Source of the DNA: Bdellovibrionales bacterium
GTDB taxonomy: Bacteria; Bdellovibrionota; Bdellovibrionia; Bdellovibrionales; JAKFYE01
Direction of reading: 5' to 3'
Assembly (NCBI GenBank): GCA_021731045.1
Contig: JAKFYE010000015.1
Location: 79,058 to 143,057 of the forward strand
Length of the DNA: 64,000 bases
Part shown: in pieces, positions 14,151-41,375 of the stretch
Numbering within the stretch: position 1 is the stretch's first letter
Layout of the letters: each line of letters starts with the position of its first letter
Translations under genes and position numbers: made by a program
The notes under the pieces: model-generated
Database searches by the model: none
What the model was told of the DNA's origin: nothing
What the model saw: only the letters and a program-made list of their open reading frames with translations

Positions 14151-14336
14151 GAGGTTTCTGCTCGGTTCGATCCGTTAGCGGAAATTAAAACCTGACAAGC
14201 ACATTATCGGGGACTGTCCCTGGCGATGGTGAGCAAGCTCAGCTTGTACTGAGAAGCCTAAAGTCGCTACCATGGTCGCCCACTTGACGCTATATGAGGT
14301 TTGAATTTCCAATAACCCCGGCCAGAGTGGAAGCCT
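14151..14336 (+). ncRNA. ssrS: 6S RNA
   Basis: The region folds into the long interrupted helix of 6S RNA. GGTTTCTGCTC near the 5' end pairs with GAGTGGAAGCC at the 3' end, GGAAATTAAAACCT (14180-14193) pairs with AGGTTTGAATTTCC (14297-14310) with one mismatch, and GGCGATGG pairs with the CCATGGTCGCC segment. The apical part GGTGAGCAAGCTC, then GAGAAGCCTAAA, closely matches the E. coli ssrS apical sequence as I remember it, and GGGGACTGTCCC corresponds to its GGGCCAGTCCCC. The length of about 186 nt is standard, and eight Ts follow as a terminator. 6S RNA binds housekeeping RNA polymerase in slow growth. Confidence 0.87.
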
Positions 14337-14881
14337 TTTTTTTCTGCACAGATCTCGGATTCTTCTTTTTTAAAACGTCTTAAATTTACTCTCTGATGAA
14401 TCTCATTTTTGCAATTTCGGCTCTCGCCGAAGTCAGCCAGTGCTTTTGGGATTCAGGGAAAAAAGAACCCCCTTCAGAAGAAAGGGGGCCGCAATATGAA
14501 ATACAAGTTGTATTCATATCGGACCGTTTCGAAGAAACTTGAGTTTTTGCTTCGTTGTACGTTGATGGGTTTGCAAATTCTTGAGTGGATACTTCGAATC
14601 GCAACTTGGATATAGAAGTTTAATCTGCTGCTTTTTGTGGGTGGCTTAAAAGGACATACAAGGATGGTGCTGGCTGGCTTCGGCGCCTTTCATCTGCACG
14701 GTTTAAAGCGCTATCTCATTTTGAGACACTTTGAGGCGTCTACTAAAAATGACCCCAGTCAAATCCTTTGACATTTGACTACTATTTGAAAAATCCTATT
14801 AGTATCAAGGTCTTATATTAGAGCTGAAACCGCCTCTCGTGGCATTTTGCTTGCTCTTCATGATGGTAGGGGGATTTTAAG
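14336..14881. other. Intergenic region between 6S RNA and the coiled-coil protein gene
   Basis: Apart from the 6S T-run (14336-14343) and the possible 39-residue ORF listed separately, I see only a short CTCATTTTGAG hairpin near 14720. A TTGACA at 14768-14773 could be the -35 of the 14882 gene, without a convincing -10. The two track ORFs here (14386-14604 minus, 14409-14615 plus) overlap and are not credible in full. Confidence 0.4.
14496..14615 (+). CDS. Possible 39-residue basic/hydrophobic peptide
   Basis: From the internal ATG at 14496 the frame gives a basic N-terminus (MKYKLYSYRTVSKKL) followed by a hydrophobic stretch ending ILEWILRIATWI, like a small membrane-associated peptide. The start is preceded by AAGGGGGCCGCAAT. 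The AAGGGGG would be the ribosome site, and it is base-paired in a CCCCCTT/AAGGGGG hairpin (14468-14488) that could hide it. It follows the 6S RNA gene. No homolog is recognised and it may be chance. Confidence 0.3.
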   Translation: MKYKLYSYRTVSKKLEFLLRCTLMGLQILEWILRIATWI

Positions 14882-25719: not shown

Positions 25720-25833
25720 GGGGACGGAGCTCTTCTAAGCTACTATAATTCTTAGGGTTTTTTGTCTGTTTGAAGCCTGCTTTTTTTCGGACACGTCGAT
25801 TGGCGCACCACTTTATTTGTGAGCTCCGTCCCC
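25720..25833. repeat. REP-like inverted pair 1 (GGGGACGGAGCTC)
   Basis: An exact 13-mer GGGGACGGAGCTC (25720-25732) faces its exact reverse complement (25821-25833) across 88 bases. The homology extends outward (CCTCAATTT on the left, mirrored by GAATTGGAGG on the right), giving arms of about 22 bases. It is intergenic, just after the terminator, in the 385-base gap before the degenerate activator gene. The same arrangement recurs at 33090-33254 and around the RAYT gene at 37.4-38.5 kb. Confidence 0.8.
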
Positions 25834-27041: not shown

Positions 27042-28082
27042 ATGAACGCGCTTCCGAAGCAAGTCCTTGAAAAAGAGACTTATTTTTCATTTTTAGCATC
27101 TGCATTATCTTCAACGGAAGTCGAAGTTATTCCTCTTGCGGGAGACGCGTCAGCACGTCGCTACTTTCGTGTCGTAAAAGATCAAACCTCGTGGGTTCTA
27201 ATGGTTTGGGAGCCCTTCGTCGACGATGACAACTACCCTTTCTTAAGTGTGCTCAATCATTTCAAACGCAACGGCGTGTTGGTTCCTGAAATCGTGGCGA
27301 AATCGCCGGCTCAAGGCCTCGTTCTATTAGAGGATCTTGGAGATCTCACTCTTGAAAGAAAGTTTTGGGAAAATCAAAATCAAGAGTCTGCTTATCCTTT
27401 TTACGAACAGACCATCGATGAACTCATCAAAATGCATTATCAATCCACCCAAGATAAACGGACGTGCACGGCTTTCAACATTATGTTTGATACTGAAAAA
27501 TTCATGTGGGAGATGAACTACGCCAAAACACATCTCTTAGAAGGCGTATGTAAAATTAATTTTTCTGATAATGAACTTGCGACTCTCGATTCATGTTTTA
27601 GAAACATATGCGAAACTTTGCATAAAGAACCTAAGTTTATTTCTCACCGTGATTATCACTCCCGAAACGTGATGATTAAATTTGGCAAAACGCGCATCAT
27701 CGACTTTCAAGATGCTCGTCTGGGGCCAATTCAATATGATTTGGTCAGTCTACTCAGAGACTCGTATGTGAATTTAGGCGACGAGATGGCCGAAAAATTA
27801 ATTGAGTATTATCTATCGCGCAGAAGCGAGTTTAATCTTCCCAAAATTCCTCACGATCGTTTTTTTGATATTTATGAACTGCAAACAATTCAGCGTTGCT
27901 TTAAAGCGTGTGGAAGCTTTGCAAGTTTCTTTAATGCTCGAGAAGACCGACGTTATTTAAAATATATTTCTAAAACTTTACAAACGGTAAAGCAAAGTCT
28001 TGAACTCTTTCCGCAATACAAGCCGTTCTTACAAATTTTGAACGATCACGGCGTGTTGGATAAACAGTACGATTCCCTATGA
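27042..28082 (+). CDS. amgK: N-acetylmuramate/N-acetylglucosamine kinase AmgK
   Basis: Aminoglycoside-phosphotransferase-fold sugar kinase that phosphorylates MurNAc at the anomeric position in the cell-wall recycling route that bypasses de novo UDP-MurNAc synthesis. Motifs: GDASARRYFRV near residue 36 (nucleotide loop), the catalytic loop ISHRDYHSRNVMI near 205, and the metal site IIDFQDARLGPIQYDLVSLLRD near 225, the last being very typical of AmgK. The 346-residue length is normal. Its stop overlaps the murU start in an ATGA, and murU is its pathway partner, which supports the assignment. Confidence 0.88.
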   Translation: MNALPKQVLEKETYFSFLASALSSTEVEVIPLAGDASARRYFRVVKDQTSWVLMVWEPFVDDDNYPFLSVLNHFKRNGVLVPEIVAKSPAQGLVLLEDLGDLTLERKFWENQNQESAYPFYEQTIDELIKMHYQSTQDKRTCTAFNIMFDTEKFMWEMNYAKTHLLEGVCKINFSDNELATLDSCFRNICETLHKEPKFISHRDYHSRNVMIKFGKTRIIDFQDARLGPIQYDLVSLLRDSYVNLGDEMAEKLIEYYLSRRSEFNLPKIPHDRFFDIYELQTIQRCFKACGSFASFFNAREDRRYLKYISKTLQTVKQSLELFPQYKPFLQILNDHGVLDKQYDSL

Positions 28083-28912
28083 AGGCTATGATCCTCGCCG
28101 CAGGATTAGGAACGCGGCTACGTCCACTCACCAATACGGTACCTAAACCCGCTGTACCGCTATTAAACATCCCGATTGGCTATTGGCCGCTTTATCATTT
28201 GTTACGCGCTGGAGTTGATGAGCTCGTGGTGAACACCCATTACCTTCCCGAAAAAGTGGTCACCCTTTATAAATCCGTACAAGGCCGAGTTAAAACTTTG
28301 AACTTCACGCTCGAAGAAAAAAAAATTCTTGGGAGCGGTGGCGGAATTGGTTTTGCACGAGAGTATTTGCAAAGCTCTCGAAGCTTCGCGACTCTTTTTA
28401 AATCTTTGTACAAACCGAAAAATTCAAATAACAACAACGGCGCATTTTGGGTTGCGAATGCCGATGAGATTTTCTTACCTGAAGACCCCGCTTTGTTTTC
28501 TAAGGTTTGGACCCAACATCAAGTCCAAAACAATCTTGCAACTCTAGTTTTGGTTCAACACCCAGATGTCGGCACAAAATTTGGTGGCGTCTGGTGCGAC
28601 TCGCAAATGAATGTTCGTGGTTTCGGAAAAGCGTCTCCCGCTCCTGGGCTAAAGCCTTATCACTTTACCGGCTTTCAAATTTTGAGCTCGAATGTCTTTA
28701 AATATATTCCCCCAGGAGAATCAAATATTTTTTATGATGTTCTCGTTCAAGCCCTTTCCAAAGGAGAACGCGTGGGGTCTATCGTGGATAACGGTCTTTG
28801 GTTTGAAACAGGAAACATCGAAGACCTTAAGCTTGCCACGGAACATTTAAATCTGTTGAAAGAAAAAAACCCCACCCTCCAATCCTTAATTAAAGAATTC
28901 GCCCTTAAATAG
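28079..28912 (+). CDS. murU: MurNAc-1-phosphate uridylyltransferase MurU
   Basis: Converts MurNAc alpha-1-phosphate plus UTP to UDP-MurNAc. The nucleotidyltransferase signature AMILAAGLGTRLRPLTNTVPKP opens the protein (Gly-rich loop and Lys), and WVANADEIF near residue 122 supplies the metal-binding Asp. The C-terminal part has YHFTGFQILSSNVF. The 277 residues are slightly longer than the 220-240 of Pseudomonas MurU. It overlaps amgK by 4 bases. A generic sugar-1-phosphate nucleotidyltransferase would look similar; the amgK coupling decides the call. Confidence 0.85.
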   Translation: MKAMILAAGLGTRLRPLTNTVPKPAVPLLNIPIGYWPLYHLLRAGVDELVVNTHYLPEKVVTLYKSVQGRVKTLNFTLEEKKILGSGGGIGFAREYLQSSRSFATLFKSLYKPKNSNNNNGAFWVANADEIFLPEDPALFSKVWTQHQVQNNLATLVLVQHPDVGTKFGGVWCDSQMNVRGFGKASPAPGLKPYHFTGFQILSSNVFKYIPPGESNIFYDVLVQALSKGERVGSIVDNGLWFETGNIEDLKLATEHLNLLKEKNPTLQSLIKEFALK

Positions 28913-28981
28913 CGTTCACGTTTCGTGTCGCATTCAAATAAATAAAGTGCACCTCATATATTGTTCGTTTAGACTTTGAAT

Positions 28982-30103
28982 ATGAATGTTCTTGGAATCA
29001 TGAGCGGTACAAGTATTGATGGTGTCGATTTAGTTTTGTGTCGCATTCAAAAATCTCCGCTCACATGTAAGTTGATCGGATCTGTCAGTTTTAAATTTCC
29101 GTCCTCGTTACAAGATGAACTTAAACTTGCCGCCAAGCACGAGTTGCGTGTGGATCGTTTGGCCCTCGTTCATCATGAGCTCGGCCGTTTTTATGCTGAA
29201 ATCTGCGCTAAAACAGTTCGTGCAAAAAAATGGAAAGTTGATGTTGTGGGGGTTCATGGACAAACGGTGTTTCATGCTCCGCCTAAAGCCACGTTGCAAA
29301 TTGGTGAAGCCTCGTACTTACGTGCGGTACTGGATGTTCCGGTTGTTTGTGATTTTCGAACTTTGGATTTAGCTTTGGGCGGCCAAGCTGCGCCACTTGC
29401 GACGCTCTTTCATCAAAAAATTTTGGCGCCGCTAGCTTTGAAACTTATCAAGAAAAAATCGGCTCCCGTTGCCATTCAAAACTTAGGTGGGATTGGCAAC
29501 GTTAGTTATTTTAACGGCAAAACGTCTTTTGCTTTTGATACCGGCCCCGCAAACATGTTGATTGACCTTGCGTGCTCACATCTGACAAACAAAGAATTCT
29601 CGTTTGATAAAAATGGTGCGTTTGCCACCAAAGGAATCCCGGCTCCGGGGTTAATCAGCAAGTGGATGAAACACGAGTATTTTTCTCGTCGGCCACCAAA
29701 AAGTTGCGGCCGAGAAGAATTCGGAGAATCTTTTTTAATTGGCGCCTTGGGCGATCTCGAGGCTTCTTCCAAAAGTGAGAATAAACTTTCAGATACGCTC
29801 GCCACCCTGACAGAATTTACAGCGGTCTCTCTGGCCGACAGCTACAAGCGCTATTTGCCGCAGCCTCCTGCCGTCGTTGTTCTCTGTGGTGGCGGAGCAA
29901 AAAATCCGTATCTAAAGTCTCGCATTCAATATCATCTTCCGAAATCGCAGGTGTTAACATCTCAAGATTTAGGTTGGCCGGCAGAAACTATTGAAGGCGC
30001 CGCCTTTGCTCTGCTCGCCGCATTTCGTATTTGGAATATCCCTTCAAACTTACCGCAAACAACTGGCGCAAAAAAGGCCGCTTCTCTCGGAAAAATTCTT
30101 TAA
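28982..30103 (+). CDS. anmK: 1,6-anhydro-N-acetylmuramate kinase
   Basis: Cleaves and phosphorylates anhMurNAc to MurNAc-6-phosphate using ATP. The N-terminal GIMSGTSIDGVD loop is diagnostic; VVGVHGQTVFH near residue 85, NLGGIGNVSYF near 165 and FDTGPANMLID near 185 are also standard. The 373-residue length is normal. I set the start at the ATG at 28982, since the track start is a TTG two codons earlier; no clear ribosome site is visible. It follows amgK-murU on the same strand, completing three steps of wall-sugar recycling. Confidence 0.93.
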   Translation: MNVLGIMSGTSIDGVDLVLCRIQKSPLTCKLIGSVSFKFPSSLQDELKLAAKHELRVDRLALVHHELGRFYAEICAKTVRAKKWKVDVVGVHGQTVFHAPPKATLQIGEASYLRAVLDVPVVCDFRTLDLALGGQAAPLATLFHQKILAPLALKLIKKKSAPVAIQNLGGIGNVSYFNGKTSFAFDTGPANMLIDLACSHLTNKEFSFDKNGAFATKGIPAPGLISKWMKHEYFSRRPPKSCGREEFGESFLIGALGDLEASSKSENKLSDTLATLTEFTAVSLADSYKRYLPQPPAVVVLCGGGAKNPYLKSRIQYHLPKSQVLTSQDLGWPAETIEGAAFALLAAFRIWNIPSNLPQTTGAKKAASLGKIL

Positions 30104-30482: not shown

Positions 30483-31451
30483 TTATGGCGCCGTCGGGGC
30501 TACGCCACTTGCGCTTTCATTGAATTGATTTTTTTTACGTTGGTCCTCGTAGCGACGACGAATCATTCCAAACATGTCGTCTCCCGCCACACCGATTTGC
30601 CCACCTTGACCATCAGATTTTGAAAGCCCTACAACCGTTGGTTTGACTTTGTTACCGCCCATAAAGTCCCTCATGTTAAAACCTGGTTCGGGTTTTGCGG
30701 CAACCGCGGAACCACCGCCTTCATCGGCGCCAAACTTTGCAAGAACTGCAGCCAATTGTTTATCCATTTGTTTTTTCATTTCGTCTTGACCTTCATTCAG
30801 CGCCGCGATTTCGGCATCGGTAAGTCCTGCCGCTTTCATTCCCGCCGCTGAACCTAACGAGCTCATTGAAAACGTACCTTTGGGAGTGGTTAGAGAATTG
30901 TTTTCTTTATTGTATTCGTAGCCTCTGGCTTTCATATCCTCAAGAGATCGACCAGCCATATTCATCGCATCGTCAAGATTGAGTCCGATGGCTTTAAGAA
31001 CATCTGCAGGAGTTAATTTTTCGAACGGAGCAAGAGTTGGTGGCGGCGCCATTTGTGGGTGATGTGATCCACCACCTCCTCCTTCCACTGTTTCTGCGGT
31101 TTTTTCTGGATCCTCCGTACTTGCGGGGCCATTGAAGCATTGAGGCGGCAGACATACAGAATCATCGTGGGCTTTAAGAAGTTTTCTTATTGTGTTGACA
31201 GTATAGATTATTTGTACAGCATCGAAAGTCGCGCGAATACAATAGGCGACGGCCGCAAGCCCACCTTTGGTGCAGTTTTTTCCGCTCATGACCAAATCTT
31301 TACCAGTAAATGTAACGGCAACTCCTGCGCTCGCGAGTCCAATGATAGTTTGTTGATTCATCTTACCTGCATGGGCCTGAGGAGAAAAAACAAGGGCGTG
31401 TATACACACGATAGTAAGAAGGATTTTTTTAAAACGACTTTGAACAAACAT
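30483..31451 (-). CDS. Exported protein with C-terminal NMRDF motif, unknown function
   Basis: 322 residues with a Sec signal peptide (residues 1-28, ending AHA). A hydrophobic, Cys-containing region (about 35-100) may hold a membrane segment. A Gly/Pro linker follows, then a helical part and a tail containing FNMRDFMGGNKVKPTVVGLS and MIRRRYEDQRKK. The NMRDF-Gly-Gly element and a basic helix after it recur near the C-terminus of the upstream gene product. GGGGGAG precedes the ATG. It is the last gene of a leftward group with the TadG-like gene. Confidence 0.7.
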   Translation of the reverse strand: MFVQSRFKKILLTIVCIHALVFSPQAHAGKMNQQTIIGLASAGVAVTFTGKDLVMSGKNCTKGGLAAVAYCIRATFDAVQIIYTVNTIRKLLKAHDDSVCLPPQCFNGPASTEDPEKTAETVEGGGGGSHHPQMAPPPTLAPFEKLTPADVLKAIGLNLDDAMNMAGRSLEDMKARGYEYNKENNSLTTPKGTFSMSSLGSAAGMKAAGLTDAEIAALNEGQDEMKKQMDKQLAAVLAKFGADEGGGSAVAAKPEPGFNMRDFMGGNKVKPTVVGLSKSDGQGGQIGVAGDDMFGMIRRRYEDQRKKNQFNESASGVAPTAP

Positions 31452-31486
31452 GTCTCCCCCATAAATACGAAAGGCAAATCACGTAA

Positions 31487-32899
31487 CTACTTGGTCTCGA
31501 TTGTTTGTTTAGTCTCACGAAGACGATTCACCTGACGAGAAACCTTTTCAAAATTCGATGGACCATTCATATCGCTCACACCGTTTTTCTCAAGATCCGA
31601 TTTACCAGCAAGACCGCGCTTTCCGCCTGGGAGGAAATCGCGAAGATTCATTCCGTTTTTATCACCCGATGATCCGGTACCAAACGGATAGGATCCGGTG
31701 CCTCCCGCCGAGTATCCGCCGCCACCCGCAGGGCCTTGAAGAATATCGGTGTTGAGCGAACCTTTGTTGGTTCCTTTACCTGCCGTCGGATTACCTGAAA
31801 ATCCGCCGCCTGGAGAGAACGCGCCACCCGGTTGCATTTGCCCCCCAGCACCACCGCCATTCGGATTTTTACTTCCAAACGCCTCCGCCGTATCACCCGG
31901 AATTTGATTCAAAAGATCTGCATCAGCAAATCCTCCATCCATACTTGAACCAGCTTCTCCCAACATTTGCTCTGCAGGAATTGCCGCTACTGCCGGCTCG
32001 GCCGTTGGACACATGGGATCTTGAGGGTTTCTATCACAAATACATTTTGGTTCAGTGTACATGTATTGACTAAGGCTACAGTCGACATCCGCAATGTACT
32101 GCGCACACTCAGAGAGACCTTTGTTTCGATATTTTCCAGAAATAGGATCACACATAATCGGCGGGCAGACGGGTTTGTTTCTTAAATCATCCATGGTCTC
32201 ACATGTCTCCGCCGCGACCGCAGTTTCACACGTTTTTGATTGTTGGTAACCCACATAGTTTTGCATAGCTTGCATAAACCCTTGGCCCGCAACGGTAGTT
32301 AATCCACTACAAGAAGATCCAAGCTGGCTCGCTTCTGCCGCATTTTCTCTGTGCTTAGCGCACGCTTGCATTTCAAAACTTGAGCAACTGGGATTGAGTG
32401 AGTTAAGACACTTGTTTCGCGCATTATTAATACAGTTGTTATAGTTTGTATTTTCATTTGAGGCGGCCGCTTTACAAGACGACTTACACGAATTTGAAGT
32501 TGTTAAACACGTCGTTGCAAAACCAATGTTCGCGCTCCCGGCAATGATATTTAATTTTTTTGAAGCTTCACAAATCTTTTTTATATCACCGGTGGCACCT
32601 GCTTGCGCAATGCTATTCACCGCGGCCGTTACTTGAGGAGTCATCTGAATCGATTTACAAGAAACCTCAGCCGCACTTGCCGAACCCTTACACGCAGAAA
32701 ATTTGGTGTCGGTGATGTATCCCGCCGTCATATCATCGTAGTTTTCAGGCGCTTGTTGTGCCGCTGCAGGCGTCGGTGTCGGAGTTGTCATACATCGATC
32801 GAAACCTTGTCCGTTAGGATCGCATTGTCCAAAAGCATTTATGGACACGCTAAAGATTAATACAACTGACAACAAGAAATTTTTCTTCCCAAAAATCAT
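31487..32899 (-). CDS. Exported Cys-rich/Gly-rich protein, unknown function
   Basis: 470 residues. The signal peptide ends near residue 24 (NAFGQC; Gln before Cys makes a lipobox doubtful). Residues 25-300 contain roughly 30 Cys, many spaced like disulfide-linked helices (NSCKSSCKAAASNEN, NCINNARNKCLNSL). A Gly/Ser/Pro-rich stretch (about 330-420) follows, then GMNLRDFLPGGKRGLAGKS and a basic helix VSRQVNRLRETKQ. The C-terminal module matches the next gene. A GGGGGA ribosome site precedes the ATG. A secreted or surface protein associated with the TadG-like gene is inferred. Confidence 0.72.
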   Translation of the reverse strand: MIFGKKNFLLSVVLIFSVSINAFGQCDPNGQGFDRCMTTPTPTPAAAQQAPENYDDMTAGYITDTKFSACKGSASAAEVSCKSIQMTPQVTAAVNSIAQAGATGDIKKICEASKKLNIIAGSANIGFATTCLTTSNSCKSSCKAAASNENTNYNNCINNARNKCLNSLNPSCSSFEMQACAKHRENAAEASQLGSSCSGLTTVAGQGFMQAMQNYVGYQQSKTCETAVAAETCETMDDLRNKPVCPPIMCDPISGKYRNKGLSECAQYIADVDCSLSQYMYTEPKCICDRNPQDPMCPTAEPAVAAIPAEQMLGEAGSSMDGGFADADLLNQIPGDTAEAFGSKNPNGGGAGGQMQPGGAFSPGGGFSGNPTAGKGTNKGSLNTDILQGPAGGGGYSAGGTGSYPFGTGSSGDKNGMNLRDFLPGGKRGLAGKSDLEKNGVSDMNGPSNFEKVSRQVNRLRETKQTIETK

Positions 32900-33286
32900 C
32901 GGAGTCCCCCATCCCTATATCGGAGCAAGAGAGGCGCCATATGAGGGTGATTCAGTCACAAAACACACTGTTTTTTCGTCCAAAATCCCCTCACCTGTCT
33001 AAGAGCGAGACATCCTATTTAAGCGTCTCAAATTGAAACAGCTCCCTCGAAAACTCGACCCTTTTTTAAAACAAATCCAGCCCTCTCCCGGGGACGGAGC
33101 TCCTTCTTCAGATCAAAAAAACAAATCAGTTTAAATTTCGGCTTTTCAACTTTGAAAAAACACGGACAAAAAACATCAATCAATTCCGCATCTTGTGTGA
33201 GCTCCGTCCCCCGCCAGGCAAATTAATTCAATATCTTTCGCGAGCTCCGTCCCCATTTATGCGGTCCCATTTATGCGCGCGAATGT
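32900..33286. repeat. Intergenic region with three REP-like copies (33090, 33199, 33242)
   Basis: GGGGACGGAGCTC at 33090-33102 is followed after 96 bases by its reverse complement at 33199-33211, and a second reverse copy lies at 33242-33254. Just after this is a short tandem repeat of CCCATTTATGCG (about 33252-33276). The spacer is AT-rich and shows only weak similarity to the 25.7 kb spacer. Nothing else is seen in this 387-base gap between the TadG-like gene and the Cys-rich protein gene. Confidence 0.8.
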
Positions 33287-35290
33287 CTACTGAAACTCGG
33301 GGGGTGGCGGATTCATAATCGGGCCCACATTTCCGCCGCCGCCCGTTCCGGCTTCTGGGTCATTCAAGTACTCTTCTGAAACTAATTTGACCGAATAGCC
33401 AACGCGACCGCCATACCCGCAACCACCAGGTATTCCGCGTGCCGGGTTTTTAAAATCTGACAGGCATTTAGCAAAAACCGCGTCGGGAAAATCATAATTG
33501 TATTCGCTCCCTGCAAGTTGTTGAGGGGCCCACCCGGTTAAAAGTTTACCTGGATCACGAATAATATATGTCGCGCTTTCCGCATATAACGGAGCATAGA
33601 CTTTCACCTGTTTCCACACATTCATCGGATCATAATCCGGCGAGCCCACGCGATATCCTAAATCGGGTCGAGCTTTAATCGAGTTGTTGGACGCTTTGAT
33701 GTACGTATCCGAAAACTGTGGGTCGATAGAGTAGTAAGTAATATCGAATAAATCTGGAGCGACGGCCGCAATTTCAAACTGACGAATCCAAGGACCTTCT
33801 GTTTTTCCTGGCTCCCAGGCCAAGACATCGGCATTCGAATCTTCAAACGTCGCATAGGGAAGCAATCCCCAAAAATCAGCTTCGAGGCGTGAACGCGCCT
33901 TAGCTAAAAAAGCACTTCTGAGTTGTGTGAGCGTAAGTTTGCTTCTTAGGCCAATAAGATCTCCTGGGTAGCGCGAATAATTTGGCGTCGAAATATTTTT
34001 ATTATTTCTACCATCTGCTGATTCTCCACCTTCAGGCATAACCGCGGCCGGCAAAAGTCGATCCACAAAATCTCCGCTCGTAGAAGACGCGCTTCCTCTT
34101 TGCCACTCAGTACGAAACCACGGGCCAATCCTGCCACCAAAAGGCTTAGCGAAAGCACGCGCACGCAACGTAACGGCAGCACCAAACGGTGCAAACGGAC
34201 GGCGTCCTTTTACGGTGGCTTCGACTCCCACGTAACCCATAATCCACGGATTTTTTTCGTATCCAACCGTAGAGTGATAAGGGTCGCGAAGATTGGGCGG
34301 CTCCCCACAAATACCCCTCGCCATGTCTTTCGCTCTTTGTGAGGAATCATACGTTGGAGATTGATAACACGGCTTGACCTCAACCTTACAATCACCTTCT
34401 TCGAGTACTATTGGATCTAAATAATAGATTTGTGGGAGGACACTAATTTTATTGATCCATCCTCCGTCACCAGCACTAGGATGGCCAAAGGAGTTATAAA
34501 GCCTCATTTCAAGATTTTCCTGGTTTGAGCGCGTGAGGTTTTTTTCTAAAGTTTTTTTTGCACCCTCTCTAACCGATTCATTTTCAAGATCTGAAAAATC
34601 TCCGACATTTGCTGAAAGGCTTTTTGCATAAAACTCGATTACCTTTGCACGGTTGGCAATATCGCCCTTGTAAGCGCCCATCCATTTTAAAGTTTGGTAA
34701 AAACTTCTTATACCAGACGCCTTGCAAGCATCATCAAATTGAGTACGCAAATCTTGCATGATTTCATAGGTGGCAAGATTTGTTTGTACCCAAAACGCAA
34801 TGACCTTAGGAGGGTCCGGAAAATGTACCGCAGCATCTTCAACTTTATTTTTACAAAAATTTTCTATGTTTTCTCCAGGCTTAATTGGGCTTAACTTCCA
34901 CCAAGAGTGTTGGGTACACACTATTGGATAGCGATCGTTAATAGGAACATCTCCGGCATTTGAATTTACGCTCACATTCATCGGCTCAAAAAACGGGTGA
35001 CCTTTTGAAGCCATGTCGCCTAATGCGCGAACTCTCCATGAGAGTAACTTCCAGCTTTGGCGAATTTGATAATTTGAATGAGCAATCGCATTTAATACTT
35101 CGGCTTGTTTTCCGGCTGCGTAATATGCGGCAAGATCCACCGAGTTTTGTAAATTAATTTTATCGTGAACCAATAAGCCAATATTAATAATCATTGCAAA
35201 GAAAACAAACAGCACCTGAAAGATCATAGCGATAAAAATAGCCATGTATCCGCGTTGATTTTTTAGAGCGCTGCATAGTTGTATATTCAT
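33287..35290 (-). CDS. TadG-like membrane-anchored protein
   Basis: 667 residues. The N-terminus (NQRGYMAIFIAMIFQVLFVF, residues 12-31) is a TadE/TadG-type prepilin-like segment: a Gly followed by a hydrophobic helix, then HDKINLQNSVDLAAYYAA, the typical TadG continuation. The rest is a large extracytoplasmic domain with aromatic and Cys residues and a Gly/Pro tail. TadG-like proteins act with Flp/Tad pilus machines, but no tadA, B or C genes are in the window. Two exported Cys/Gly-rich genes follow on the same strand. Confidence 0.7.
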   Translation of the reverse strand: MNIQLCSALKNQRGYMAIFIAMIFQVLFVFFAMIINIGLLVHDKINLQNSVDLAAYYAAGKQAEVLNAIAHSNYQIRQSWKLLSWRVRALGDMASKGHPFFEPMNVSVNSNAGDVPINDRYPIVCTQHSWWKLSPIKPGENIENFCKNKVEDAAVHFPDPPKVIAFWVQTNLATYEIMQDLRTQFDDACKASGIRSFYQTLKWMGAYKGDIANRAKVIEFYAKSLSANVGDFSDLENESVREGAKKTLEKNLTRSNQENLEMRLYNSFGHPSAGDGGWINKISVLPQIYYLDPIVLEEGDCKVEVKPCYQSPTYDSSQRAKDMARGICGEPPNLRDPYHSTVGYEKNPWIMGYVGVEATVKGRRPFAPFGAAVTLRARAFAKPFGGRIGPWFRTEWQRGSASSTSGDFVDRLLPAAVMPEGGESADGRNNKNISTPNYSRYPGDLIGLRSKLTLTQLRSAFLAKARSRLEADFWGLLPYATFEDSNADVLAWEPGKTEGPWIRQFEIAAVAPDLFDITYYSIDPQFSDTYIKASNNSIKARPDLGYRVGSPDYDPMNVWKQVKVYAPLYAESATYIIRDPGKLLTGWAPQQLAGSEYNYDFPDAVFAKCLSDFKNPARGIPGGCGYGGRVGYSVKLVSEEYLNDPEAGTGGGGNVGPIMNPPPPEFQ

Positions 35291-36313: not shown

Positions 36314-37426
36314 ATGACAACAACGAGGCAAAAAGTCGGTCAAGCGACAATGATCGGAATTTCTGGAAAGTCTCTGACCGAGGGCGAAAAGAAATTTATT
36401 GTTCAAAACAATATCGGCGGCATCACGCTTTTTTCTCGCAACATCGAAACGCCCCAACAATTACACAAACTCACGACCGAAATCCAAGCTCTTCGCAATC
36501 AACAGCCTGATAAAGCACCATTACTTATTGCAATCGACATGGAGGGCGGCCGAGTCGCACGCCTCAAGGCCCCCTTTACCCAATGGCCCCCACTAAAAAA
36601 AATCGGCGACCTCGACTCCGCCAGCATCGCCTTCAAATTCGCCGAAAGCATGGGGACGGAGCTCCAAGCCATCGGCGTAAATTTAGATTTTGCCCCGTGC
36701 GTAGACATTTTAACCAATCCCCAAAATATTTTGATCGGGGACCGCGCCCTCAGCACGGACGCCGAAGCAGTTGGAAAACTCGCGAGCGCTTTGGTGCGTG
36801 GGTATATTAAATCTGGCGTTATCGCGTGTGCCAAACACTTTCCGGGTCATGGCAACACGATCATCGATTCTCATTTTGATTTGCCCGTCGAAGATGTTTC
36901 ACTTGAAACCTTAATTGCGCGTGAGCTCTCTCCCTTTAAAAAAACATTTCGCGCACGACTCGATATGGTGATGACCGCACACATTCTGTACAAAAATATT
37001 GATGCCGAATGGCCCGCAACACTTTCTAAGAAGATTCTGAGTGAGATTTTGCGCAAAGAATGCGGATATCGCGGGCTCGTGATTTCGGACGATCTTGACA
37101 TGAAAGCTTTACGAAAGCTCTATGAACCAGGAGTCATTGCGGTTCGCGCGTTAGAAGCAGGAATAAATATTCTACTTTATTGCAACGAAGCCGAAACTCC
37201 AGAAATGGGGCTAGACGCTATCGACAAAGCTTTAGCTGACAAAAGAATATCGATGGATGCCGTAGAAAATAATTACCAGCTCATGTTAAAACTGAAGAAG
37301 TCTAAAGTAAAACAAATCGACCCACTCCCCTTGCCAGAAGCCGCTCGCATCATCGGCCACCCCGATCACCTCGCGCTCTCCAAAGCCATCGCCTCCGGCC
37401 AAATCCCCGAAGGCATGACCACCTAA
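36314..37426 (+). CDS. nagZ: Beta-N-acetylglucosaminidase NagZ
   Basis: GH3 glycosidase that removes GlcNAc from GlcNAc-anhMurNAc muropeptides, the step before AnmK. Motifs: GGITLFSRNIETPQQL near residue 35, AIDMEGGRVARL near 75, the catalytic-His loop CAKHFPGHGNTIIDSHFDLP near 175, and the nucleophile in VISDDLDMKAL near 260. The 370 residues are slightly long. The sequence GGGGACGGAGCTC (36652-36664), identical to the REP-like core, lies in frame as Gly-Thr-Glu-Leu within a conserved segment. No ribosome site is clear; coupling to the preceding gene is likely. Confidence 0.9.
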   Translation: MTTTRQKVGQATMIGISGKSLTEGEKKFIVQNNIGGITLFSRNIETPQQLHKLTTEIQALRNQQPDKAPLLIAIDMEGGRVARLKAPFTQWPPLKKIGDLDSASIAFKFAESMGTELQAIGVNLDFAPCVDILTNPQNILIGDRALSTDAEAVGKLASALVRGYIKSGVIACAKHFPGHGNTIIDSHFDLPVEDVSLETLIARELSPFKKTFRARLDMVMTAHILYKNIDAEWPATLSKKILSEILRKECGYRGLVISDDLDMKALRKLYEPGVIAVRALEAGINILLYCNEAETPEMGLDAIDKALADKRISMDAVENNYQLMLKLKKSKVKQIDPLPLPEAARIIGHPDHLALSKAIASGQIPEGMTT

Positions 37427-37676: not shown

Positions 37677-38381
37677 CTATCCAGGTTTTAAATCGTTTTT
37701 TGTGGCTAACGCATAAATTATTTTAGAAATACGTCGCATCTTCCAGAGTTGAGATCCTATAAACGGTTGAAAAAATTCTGTGCGGTCTTGCGTTTGCTCT
37801 AAATATTTTAAAAATAATGTTCTATACTTGTGTTGCCTTTCTCTCTCCGTTGTACCAAGTTCCATATACCATTCGGGAGTCGTCAGTAGTTTTGTGAACT
37901 CGTCTTTAATTCCATAAGCGTAAAATCTGTAACTTGAATACTTATTAAACTTCAGTTTTCTTTCAATATATTTACCAGCTCTTATGGGATTTGCCTCAAC
38001 ATAAAAGTGGACCCTCATTTGATGTTCTGAATTTTCAATAAGTGGTGTTTTTGGTCGACCTTCCGCTACCTTTCCTGATCTCTTATGGATTCTGTTATAT
38101 CTTGCGCCAAATAGTGCGTGGGCTTGGCGTAAAAAATCTGAAAACTTTCGGCTTCCTTGATCAAAACTACTTACGTTATGAAAGTGATTATCCATACATG
38201 CATACGCGTGAATTTTTACACAACCGTCTTTAGCATGAGAATTTAGAGCTTCTTTTACACAAGTTAAATAGAGAGATTTCATTAAGTCCGTTTGAAGATA
38301 ATTTTCGCGATTATGGCATCGCCAATATTGGTGCACCCAACCCTGGGATTCATAAAGCTGCAATGAACGAGGAATACGCAT
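37677..38381 (-). CDS. REP-associated tyrosine transposase (RAYT)
   Basis: 234-residue single-domain Y1 transposase. The HUH-type metal motif appears in YACMDNHFHNV near residue 65, and the catalytic-Tyr region in VHFYVEANPIRAGKY near 140, matching the YVxxNPxRAG hallmark of RAYTs; ARYNRIHKRSGKVAEGRPK between them is also typical. RAYTs are single-copy, domesticated IS200/IS605 relatives that mobilise short palindromic repeats. Here inverted copies of a GGGGACGGAGC repeat flank the gene at 37433 and 38461. The gene and its flanks are more AT-rich than the neighbours, which suggests horizontal origin. Confidence 0.85.
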   Translation of the reverse strand: MRIPRSLQLYESQGWVHQYWRCHNRENYLQTDLMKSLYLTCVKEALNSHAKDGCVKIHAYACMDNHFHNVSSFDQGSRKFSDFLRQAHALFGARYNRIHKRSGKVAEGRPKTPLIENSEHQMRVHFYVEANPIRAGKYIERKLKFNKYSSYRFYAYGIKDEFTKLLTTPEWYMELGTTERERQHKYRTLFLKYLEQTQDRTEFFQPFIGSQLWKMRRISKIIYALATKNDLKPG

Positions 38382-38473: not shown

Positions 38474-38529
38474 GTTTTGGGTGGATGCGCAGCAGCTATG
38501 GGATTGGTTTGATGGCGAAATTTTTTAGA

Positions 38530-38704
38530 GTGTGGTTTAAGCAGGAAAATTAATAACAGGAAAGAAGGTTTGAATCCTTCGCGGTACCCGCCACTGTATG
38601 TAGTACGCCTTAAGGCAACCGCATCGACGTCACTGGAAACGCTTAATCGCCAAACTGGGAAGACCTCGATGACAAAAACGGTCTACAAGCCAGGATATCT
38701 GTCC
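38530..38704 (+). promoter_or_regulatory. Cobalamin riboswitch
   Basis: The leader of btuB contains the conserved core of AdoCbl-type riboswitches: AACAGGAAAGAAGGTTTGAA, then GCGGTACCCGCCACTGTA, the AACTGGGAAGACC segment, and the 3' B12 box AGCCAGGATATCTGTCC (38688-38704). Only 6 bases separate the B12 box from the AAGGAG ribosome site and no terminator intervenes, so control of translation initiation is the likely mechanism. It should shut the btu operon off when cobalamin is plentiful. Confidence 0.93.
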
Positions 38705-38721
38705 AACATAAAGGAGTCTTC

Positions 38722-40569
38722 GTGGAACAAAGACAACGGTTTTTTACTATTTCAAGAAATCAATACCAGCTTATTTTCGCCTGCATCATAGTCACACTTT
38801 CAGCACACGCTCAAATCCATACACTACCATCAGAAAAAGTGGAATCAACACCAATAACAACGTTTTCTGAAGAAACGGCCGCTTGGCCAACGCAAAGATA
38901 CGATTCGGAACTATTGCAATCATCGAACCTTTCAACTTTTGAAACATTAAATCGTGTGCCCGGAATCGAAACTCGGGGGAGCTTAAGTAAAGGCTCACCC
39001 GCAATTACCTTTCGTGGTTCCACAAAGGCCAATCGTAGCTTGCTTTTATACGACGGCATTCCGCTCAACTTAGCAGACGGAATAGGCGCTCAAGAATTAT
39101 TAATTCCGCGCGAGGCCCTTGGTAGCATACAAATTTTAAAAGGTCCTTCGGGTGTATACTACGGCGCAGGCGCAATGAGCGGAGGAGTCAACTTTCAACC
39201 TGAATTTTATACCCGCTCTCGTCTTCGGGCAACGGCCGGTAGCTTCGGACAAAAAGGCGCATTCGCAGCAGCAAGCTTAATAAATGACGAACGTAATCAG
39301 GTTCAACTTACGGGTTTTACTGAATCTCTCGATGGCGATTACCCTTATTTTTCTCCGACATCTGGACAAAACGGAACGCGTACACGTACAGATACTCACA
39401 CTCAACGCGGAACTTTTTCGGGAAATCATATACTTTCTGGTTACAGGTTAGGTTATCGAATTTTACACGCGCAGGAGTTTGGCTCCGTCCCCGGCGCGAT
39501 AGGGTCGCCCGATCCGACTTCGGCTCAAAAAACGGGCGGTATTTATGCCTTTAAAGTCAGCAAGGCTTATGGACCTCGTTGGGACACTAAAGTTTACGCT
39601 TCGAATGTACAAACTCAAAGTCATTTTCTCACAGAGAAAACTCAAGTCTCTTATGACTCCCGCGCATCCGAAACCGTGACCGGCTTTGTTACTTCCTATA
39701 ATGAAGGTGCAGAATTACGTCTTCAACTTTTAGGCGACTACAAAGAGAGTTCGCTTTCAACTGTCGCGATTTCGAATAAACGCGAACAACAGGCCGAACC
39801 CGGACTTCTAGTGTCTTTTCCGTTCGCGGATGACGCCGTTATGCAGGCAGGTGTTCGTTATTTAGCTTCTTACGGAATTTTGACTAAGGCGTTGGGGGTG
39901 GTGCGAACATATGAGAACAAAAAATTTTGGGTTACTTATGCAGAGGGGTTTCGAGCTCCGTCCCTGTCTGACAAGTATGCGGAGTATACGACGTTTCATG
40001 GAAATCACGATTTGAAGCCTGAGGTTTCTACTCAGATTGAGGTTGGCGCCTCTCAACAAAGTCGCAAACATGATGATAGTTTTTTAAATCATTTTAATTC
40101 TGAGATTTCTGTTTTTTCAACCAGCTACGACAATCTCATTACAACGACTTCCGATTTTTCTACGCTTACGAACAAAGACTTTGTGCGTATTTTTGGAGGA
40201 GAAGCCGCCGCAAGTTATCCTTTTGATCTTTGGGATATCGGTCTTGCCTACTCTCACGTCAATGCGAAGTTTAATAACTTGCCGTTAGCCCTAACAACGG
40301 AGCACAAACTTCAAGCCTCCCTCGCACATTATTTTGGACCCATCGTTTTTGAATTACAAAGCACGAGTTGGATAAATTATTATCGCACAGCCTCGAATGA
40401 AGATAAATCAAACTGGAACACATACGACTTTAAAGTTCGCACCATCGGCCTCACAGATTGGATTTTTTCGGCCGGTGTTTACAATATGTTTGATGAACCG
40501 ATCGAGTATATGACGGGATATCCTGAACCTCGAAAGCGATTTACTGCATCTTTAGAAAGGTTGTTCTAA
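38722..40569 (+). CDS. btuB: TonB-dependent cobalamin receptor BtuB
   Basis: Outer-membrane barrel that imports cobalamin using TonB energy. The start is a GTG after AAGGAG. A signal peptide spans residues 1-29 (SAHA). The plug domain has TLNRVPGIETRG, the plug loop AITFRGSTKANRSLLLYDGI and GPSGVYYGAGAMSGGVNF. The barrel carries the conserved GFRAPSLSDKY and ends in LERLF with the terminal Phe. The 615 residues are typical. Two copies of the REP-like core (39481 and 39953) fall in frame in the coding sequence. Function is supported by the riboswitch and the btuFCD genes behind it. Confidence 0.93.
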   Translation: MEQRQRFFTISRNQYQLIFACIIVTLSAHAQIHTLPSEKVESTPITTFSEETAAWPTQRYDSELLQSSNLSTFETLNRVPGIETRGSLSKGSPAITFRGSTKANRSLLLYDGIPLNLADGIGAQELLIPREALGSIQILKGPSGVYYGAGAMSGGVNFQPEFYTRSRLRATAGSFGQKGAFAAASLINDERNQVQLTGFTESLDGDYPYFSPTSGQNGTRTRTDTHTQRGTFSGNHILSGYRLGYRILHAQEFGSVPGAIGSPDPTSAQKTGGIYAFKVSKAYGPRWDTKVYASNVQTQSHFLTEKTQVSYDSRASETVTGFVTSYNEGAELRLQLLGDYKESSLSTVAISNKREQQAEPGLLVSFPFADDAVMQAGVRYLASYGILTKALGVVRTYENKKFWVTYAEGFRAPSLSDKYAEYTTFHGNHDLKPEVSTQIEVGASQQSRKHDDSFLNHFNSEISVFSTSYDNLITTTSDFSTLTNKDFVRIFGGEAAASYPFDLWDIGLAYSHVNAKFNNLPLALTTEHKLQASLAHYFGPIVFELQSTSWINYYRTASNEDKSNWNTYDFKVRTIGLTDWIFSAGVYNMFDEPIEYMTGYPEPRKRFTASLERLF

Positions 40570-41375
40570 TGAAATTTTTAAATATCGCTCTACTCTTTTT
40601 TGTTAGTCTTCCGCTCTTCGCAAAACCATTACCGCAAAAATTGGTTGTGTTAAGTCCCGCTTTATTTGAAATTATTTTTTCTCTCGGTGAAGGTAAGCGT
40701 ATTATCGGGGCCACGGAATATTCCGATTATCCCCGACAAGCGAAGCCGATTCCCCGCGTTGGGAGTTACGCGAGCCCTTCGATAGAAAAAATCGTGGAAC
40801 TTAAACCGGAAGCCGTCTTGCTTGCCGATGAGGGTGTTGACACCGTGACAGAATCCCTTGCACGTGCGGGTATAAAAACAAGAATTTATAAAATGAAAAC
40901 GCTCCGTGACTTTGAAACCGTCGTCACTCAGCTCGGAAAAGAGCTGAGCGTTGAAAAAAAGGCCGACGCCGTATTAACCAATTGGAAAAATGATTGGAAA
41001 AAACTCGAAAGCGAAAAGTCTCAACACCGCGTTCTCATTCAAGTCGATCATGACCCTATCTTCGTTGCAGGAGACAAAACGTTTCTTTCTGAAATTATCG
41101 ACCGGTGTGGGTCAAGTAACGACATGAGTTCTTTGAATGGCTACAAACAGCCCACCCTAGAACGACTCGCGCAAACAAAAGCCGATACCATTCTCGTAAC
41201 GGCCCAAATTAAAGCCAAAGACCTTAAAGAAAACATCTTGGCGTTTTGGGAGAAACAACCTCTCAATTCTAAACCGCGAATTTTGTTTGCTGATCCCGAT
41301 CAACTCAGTCGATTGGCGCCACGATTGCCGCTCGCCGCTCTTAAAATTTGCAAAGACTTAAAAGCGACGCCATGA
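40569..41375 (+). CDS. btuF: Periplasmic cobalamin-binding protein BtuF
   Basis: 268 residues with a signal peptide (1-18, LPLFAK). The domain is a class III solute-binding protein with two lobes and a linking helix: LVVLSPALFEIIFSLGEGKRIIG, then SDYPRQAKPIPRVGSYASPS, the usual BtuF/FhuD opening. It delivers cobalamin to BtuCD. The ATG shares one base with the btuB stop (TAATG). Confidence 0.88.
   Translation: MKFLNIALLFFVSLPLFAKPLPQKLVVLSPALFEIIFSLGEGKRIIGATEYSDYPRQAKPIPRVGSYASPSIEKIVELKPEAVLLADEGVDTVTESLARAGIKTRIYKMKTLRDFETVVTQLGKELSVEKKADAVLTNWKNDWKKLESEKSQHRVLIQVDHDPIFVAGDKTFLSEIIDRCGSSNDMSSLNGYKQPTLERLAQTKADTILVTAQIKAKDLKENILAFWEKQPLNSKPRILFADPDQLSRLAPRLPLAALKICKDLKATP

Follow-up and report, generated by a model that had tools for sequence, protein, structure and literature searches.

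Two exported proteins encoded side by side in a Bdellovibrionales genome, here termed A and B, have unrelated bodies and end in C-terminal tails that profile comparison indicates are homologous. Together with a TadG-like gene, they form a cassette that is core in the class Bdellovibrionia; the conservation of the A–B pair, its sigma28-type promoter and its attack-phase expression in Bdellovibrio bacteriovorus HD100 are likewise evidenced. The TadG-like protein alone belongs to a known kind, and the novelty lies in the tail-bearing A–B pair.

Prey attachment by Bdellovibrio-type predators has long been an open question, and many of the genes that a transposon screen showed to be required stayed labeled "hypothetical". 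Bd0150, which is very probably the HD100 counterpart of B, and its operon partner Bd0149 can now be connected with a TadG-like pilin, with sigma28 control in the attack phase and with a class-wide tail. Being only about 20–30 residues long, this tail lends itself to truncation, exchange or use as bait, and it offers a testable handle on the assembly of the prey-contact apparatus.

The cassette occupies positions 30483–35290 of the window, the whole 64,000-nucleotide stretch of DNA that was analyzed, and is transcribed from the minus strand in the order TadG-like gene, a 387-bp gap, A, and B (Table 1). The three ORFs are confirmed at the coordinates given in the first-pass annotation of this DNA. 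The source assembly (2.58 Mb, 47 contigs, 84% complete) belongs to an order-level relative of Bdellovibrio.

Table 1. Features of the cassette, in transcription order and window coordinates
Feature	Position	Strand	Basis
TadG-like minor-pilin gene, 667 aa	33287–35290	-	PF13400 match, alignment, AF2 model
Intergenic region 5′ of the A–B pair, with sigma28-like -10 CCGATA	32900–33286	-	2 promoter mismatches in the window
Exported protein A, 470 aa, with a Sec-type signal peptide, a helical body rich in Cys, a Gly-rich linker and the C-terminal tail	31487–32899	-	
Tail of A: NLRDFLPGGK box and RGLAG, then a linker and the basic helix SNFEKVSRQVNRLRETK	31490–31648	-	Profile match to B tail, motif alignment
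Exported protein B, 322 aa, with a Sec-type signal peptide, a helical hairpin bearing a conserved pair of Cys, a small alpha/beta domain, a flexible linker and the C-terminal tail	30483–31451	-	
Tail of B: NMRDFMGGNK box, then a linker and the helix IGVAGDDMFGMIRRRYEDQRKK	30486–30677	-	Profile match, motif alignment, AF2

The C-terminal tail of A and B

The tail profiles of 34 A-type and 36 B-type homologues match each other with E = 1.3e-7 and a score of 42.9 (20 column-shuffled controls score 5.2–11.3), whereas the profiles of the bodies do not match (E = 0.56). When the full-length profiles are compared, the alignment is confined to the tail region (E = 4.9e-8). The two tails of the window, compared alone, have a modest likeness, with a Smith-Waterman score of 47 that is equalled by 56 of 5000 shuffles. 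These comparisons bear out the proposal of the first-pass annotation that two proteins with differing bodies carry a common C-terminal module, and both proteins also look exported, as had been claimed.

The conserved core of the tail is a basic amphipathic helix, [SND]-[NIL]-[FW]-x-x-[IVAM]-x-R-[RQ]-Y, which is followed by basic residues and carried on a Gly-rich linker; a narrower form of the core has [MK] at the second x. The core is present in 34/34 A tails and 36/36 B tails, and absence of the tail from homologues, named at the outset as grounds for abandoning the module, was looked for and is not the case. The N-[ML]-RDF motif by which the module had been recognized is real, NLRDFLPGGK and NMRDFMGGNK being the sole N[ML]RDF matches among the 292 stop-to-stop ORFs of the window, but the box is the less conserved half: NxRDF (LxxFLPGG/NxRDF) is found in 23 of the 34 A tails and in only four of the 36 B tails, those of the source genome and three family-f7 genomes. 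The lead-in before the helix core reads IGVAGD in B and GITGxxG in A. The tail lies near the C terminus throughout, despite protein lengths of 355–773 aa in A and 282–442 aa in B. In an AF2 model of B, residues 293–306 form a helix, preceded by a mostly low-confidence linker (residues 246–291), and the B tail is thus modeled as a small tethered helix. Moderate amphipathicity is seen in the tail helix (moment 0.39 vs 0.29 for shuffled sequences), and the segment has a mean net charge of about +2.

As read from the sequences, A and B appear to combine Sec-type signal peptides, Cys-rich bodies and a Gly-rich linker. The signal peptides are short and were recognized by eye, and the Cys content averages 16 in A and about 4 in B. 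Neither a pilin-like N-terminal helix with a prepilin peptidase site nor a Pfam pilin match was found in A or B. No family in Pfam, NCBIfam or the PDB covers A, B or the tail, and NCBIfam gives no match for any cassette protein.

Short conserved C-terminal sorting modules on otherwise unrelated exported proteins are known from the T9SS CTD, PEP-CTERM, MYXO-CTERM and LPXTG systems. The tail of A and B differs from these in having no trailing transmembrane segment, beta-CTD or sortase motif; it consists of a flexible linker that leads into a soluble, basic helix.

The TadG-like protein and the distribution of the cassette

The N terminus of the TadG-like protein matches the Pfam Tad family PF13400 (E = 2.4e-7, 31.4 bits against a cut-off of 22.3 bits). 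A family alignment from 30 genomes has 49 invariant columns, and the protein ends in ...IMNPPP after a large helix/beta distal region. The AF2 model (pLDDT 80.6, pTM 0.85) places helices at residues 6–91 and 169–226 and strands at 261–408, predicting a pilin-like N-terminal helix of 86 residues, then another long helix and, beyond it, a beta region. In a Bdellovibrio relative (G028, L078:9309-11572), the TadG-like gene is split into ORFs of 310 and 444 aa by an apparent frameshift, which could stem from a sequencing error or reflect natural loss. Foldseek searches with the TadG-like and B models and PDB profile searches returned nothing credible, only low-complexity or chance matches, and the PDB search with the TadG-like protein gave no match below E = 0.5.

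Similar to canonical TadE/TadF/TadG proteins of Tad/Flp loci, the TadG-like protein has the PF13400 N-terminal helix and is found in a genome with Tad machinery. Unlike them, it is encoded outside a tad operon, with NagZ, AnmK, MurU and AmgK as neighbors and no TadE/F in the neighboring ORF lists that were read, and it has no vWA-type C-terminal domain by Pfam at E up to 1.

Another known system to compare is the Kil system of Myxococcus xanthus (PMC12075869). There, KilL, KilM and KilN make up the Tip complexes; KilN has a pilin base whose distal domain, built from two long helices plus a beta scaffold, is without a PDB homologue, it forms a heterotrimer with the minor pilins KilL and KilM, and a KilN-like Tip is predicted for B. 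bacteriovorus by structure search (PMC12075869). As far as a comparison with the written description goes, the helices and strands of the TadG-like model agree with KilN. The Kil Tip and the cassette appear to share a large minor pilin of TadG type, in which two long helices are joined to a distal part rich in beta structure, along with a predatory context and paralogous Tip clusters away from the main Kil machinery. They differ in that KilL and KilM are pilin-like with prepilin peptidase sites, whereas A and B begin with Sec-type signal peptides, lack a pilin helix and end in a common tail.

Of 106 good genomes from the class Bdellovibrionia, 103 have the TadG-like gene and 102 have B, mostly in single copy. 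In a sample of the phylum, 54 of the 55 B-bearing genomes belong to this class, and B is found in 1 of 138 genomes outside it. TadG homologues, mainly of the N-terminal part, extend through most of the phylum without B. In 17 of 41 TadG loci the gene is followed immediately, on its own strand, by A and then B; eight loci show other nearby arrangements and 16 have neither nearby, some of these lying at contig ends. The A–B pair is unlinked from TadG in several genomes, and A and B lie on separate contigs in two (G001, G015). The cassette recurs in the sister order (L224, L225). In family f14 of another class, two genera (L218, L247) have TadG followed by exported proteins whose tails are of the types SPSLFSRVTHAYQKK and SLFERVSLKIKK, with a best E of 7.8e-6; other TadG homologues of the phylum mostly have no adjoining tail protein. 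Genome G201 has three tail proteins in succession, the weakest of which was recognized by eye. Searched with the tail profile at E <= 0.05, a set of 16 genomes gave two to four tail proteins for each member of the class; HD100 has five in all, counting a flagellar-side cassette described below. In other classes of the phylum (L213:10462-11367, L217:10739-11323, L259:9459-10043), a histone-like protein rich in Lys and Ala and an HD-domain-like protein, both recognized by eye, follow the TadG-like gene instead.

Co-conservation of the tail with TadG-like proteins, suggested as a check in the first-pass annotation, is therefore borne out by these counts and by its location near TadG in most of the loci checked. 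The companion check on Tad machinery gave a positive but uninformative answer: an orthologue of the Tad export ATPase (a Bd0111-type TadZ-TadA fusion) is encoded in 40/40 genomes, including the source genome (G000:C3:98892-101060, 58% identity), and since every genome has it, co-occurrence cannot discriminate. PF13629 had been considered as a marker of the machinery and was dropped in favor of the Bd0111 ATPase as uninformative, because it misses HD100 itself. A presence-absence correlation of TadG and B (Fisher p = 2e-5) was discarded as evidence, being confounded by incomplete genomes.

Counterparts in HD100, attack-phase control and docking of the tail

The HD100 locus reads motA, motB, nagZ, LolA-like, TadG, a 486-aa A protein, a 336-aa B protein, NamZ, murU and amgK, with names assigned by synteny and eye except for NamZ, which was assigned by Pfam. 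Orthologues of A and B are thus in the same order and genomic neighborhood as in the window. The published Bd0149 allele c.767G>T, G256V (PMC11323537), fits the A ORF and neither of the other two cassette ORFs. NamZ also has Gly at position 256, but the HD100 "muramidase" is Bd0152 (PMC11656739). Because of this fit and the FliA-type promoter directly upstream, Bd0149 is the HD100 A protein. The B ORF starts 9 bp downstream of A, and Bd0150 is therefore very probably B, an assignment that rests on gene order and not on a record sequence. The TadG-like orthologue (L077:8950-11169) is probably Bd0148. The HD100 tad genes lie at about 97–105 kb and the cassette at 132–137 kb. A 101-aa Bd0108-type ORF at 96,873-97,178 fits the published breakpoint near 97,050 in Bd0108 (PMC11323537); the hit locus (Bd0108/Bd0109) was considered as the identity of the cassette and ruled out, being about 35 kb distant and encoding different proteins. 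No tail matches were found among the HD100 tad-locus proteins.

A transposon mutant of Bd0150 shows no attachment to, killing or rounding of prey (class I) and is absent from the five complemented strains named (PMC6561027). Bd0149 G256V co-occurred in biofilm-forming host-independent strains (PMC11323537); G256 is not conserved and is located in the body, so the mutant is uninformative on the tail. In the literature searched, Bd0149 and Bd0150 were found only as hypothetical or uncharacterized proteins, and no description of the shared tail, the TadG partnership or the class-wide distribution was found.

The A–B pair is preceded by a sigma28 (FliA)-type promoter. The motif TAAA-N16/17-CCGATA is perfect in 8/35 A–B loci, against 0/614 control genes from these loci (Fisher p = 3e-11); when one mismatch is allowed, the counts are 15/35 and 24/614, respectively (p = 4e-11). 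These p-values are optimistic because the A–B loci are related to one another. In the window, a perfect -10 element lies about 20 bp 5′ of the A start, but the -35 element is imperfect. HD100 has TTAAG-N16-CCGAAA in the gap directly upstream of A, to be compared with the attack-phase consensus TTAAG-N16-CCGATA (PMC3627812), and Pbd0149 is a FliA-motif promoter that was selected among highly expressed attack-phase genes (PMC12622784). TadG shows no FliA-type promoter enrichment across its family.

On balance, A and B may be attack-phase envelope proteins that use their common tail to dock on an assembly of the envelope, the likeliest being the tip of a TadG/Kil-type pilus; this reading stands at about an even chance. 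The cassette would then be a lineage-specific accessory of a Tad/Flp (Kil-type) pilus, with the TadG-like protein as a large minor pilin and probably the tip scaffold. In Bdellovibrionia, the A–B operon would be transcribed by sigma28 in the hunting attack phase. A and B would leave the cytoplasm by the Sec pathway and fold in the oxidizing envelope, and the shared tag, a Gly-rich linker with the [FW]-x-x-[IVAM]-x-R-[RQ]-Y helix, would hold both on one common partner, most likely the TadG/pilus-tip assembly or its outer-membrane base. The divergent bodies would be displayed as prey-contact or adhesion modules. The export route, the docking, the docking partner and the display are all inferred. 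More tentatively, the cassette could represent a docking-tag system of Bdellovibrionia in which a short C-terminal helix plugs interchangeable modules onto one Tad/Kil-type pilus tip under flagellar sigma factor control, making the tip an exchangeable tool holder for prey attachment.

HD100 has a second set of tail proteins that bears on the partner. At L236:7114-11574 (about 488–493 kb), three tandem A-type exported proteins of 529, 461 and 459 aa have near-identical tails (LRQFLPGGK...GITGPHSNIWxKIQNRYQV). They adjoin flgF/flgG/flgA/flgH/flgI-like genes, identified by eye, between GPx-like and lysC-like genes, and no TadG is near; congeners have two (L237) or one (L238) such flagellar-side tail proteins. 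Because of this cassette, the lack of FliA control of TadG and the unlinked A–B loci, a receptor other than TadG has to be considered. The tail could be a general signal for envelope retention or secretion that is read by an outer-membrane, pole or flagellar-associated complex, the linkage of TadG, A and B then reflecting a shared prey-contact function and not binding. Such a receptor is a possible, if doubtful, alternative, given the class-wide co-conservation and frequent adjacency with TadG, which recurs in family f14 outside the class, and the number of tail proteins per genome, which is small for a general sorting signal. The earlier view of A and B as parts of a surface or secretion apparatus therefore fares unevenly: a surface, attachment-related role fits the published genetics and expression in HD100, but sorting or docking by the tail, and TadG as its partner, are conjectural, and the unlinked A–B loci, the phylum-wide occurrence of TadG without B and the flagellar-side cassette speak against them.

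Pairing of A with B, or of A with A, through a coiled-coil-like helix is an unlikely explanation in which the proteins would build a surface polymer or layer and TadG would be a mere neighbor; the usual adjacency of A and B in one operon, their matching tails and the amphipathicity of the helix are consistent with it, but not the separation of A and B in G001 and G015 or the tandem A-only proteins of HD100. That the tail is a duplication relic with a generic membrane-binding helix and no specific partner is highly improbable: basic amphipathic helices can bind membranes, and the segment is positively charged, but D/N/S-N/I-F/W, R-R-Y and the IGVAGD lead-in are kept across some 70 proteins whose bodies have diverged beyond recognition.

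Surroundings of the cassette

The plus-strand flanks encode AmgK-, MurU-, AnmK- and NagZ-like proteins of MurNAc recycling, a small DMT-family protein and an exported protein of 307 aa with a sub-threshold match to LolA_like. The recycling genes enclose the cassette (27042-30103 and 36314-37426 in the window; L077:13797-17029 in HD100). In HD100, NamZ occupies the AnmK slot, possibly by a same-place exchange of the recycling enzyme.

The repeat GGGACGGAGCTC is present in eight copies in the window, counting both orientations, compared with 0.07 expected. Copies are located at 33091-33253, 25721-25832, 36653, 38461 and 39953, three of them within the gap between the TadG-like gene and A. The repeats resemble REP elements, and an ORF at 37677-38381 is RAYT-like by eye, without a Pfam match. 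At 38516-41375, a cobalamin riboswitch (RF00174) precedes genes for a TonB-dependent receptor and for a periplasmic binding protein, likely a vitamin B12 uptake operon, and a 6S RNA is located at 14152-14337.
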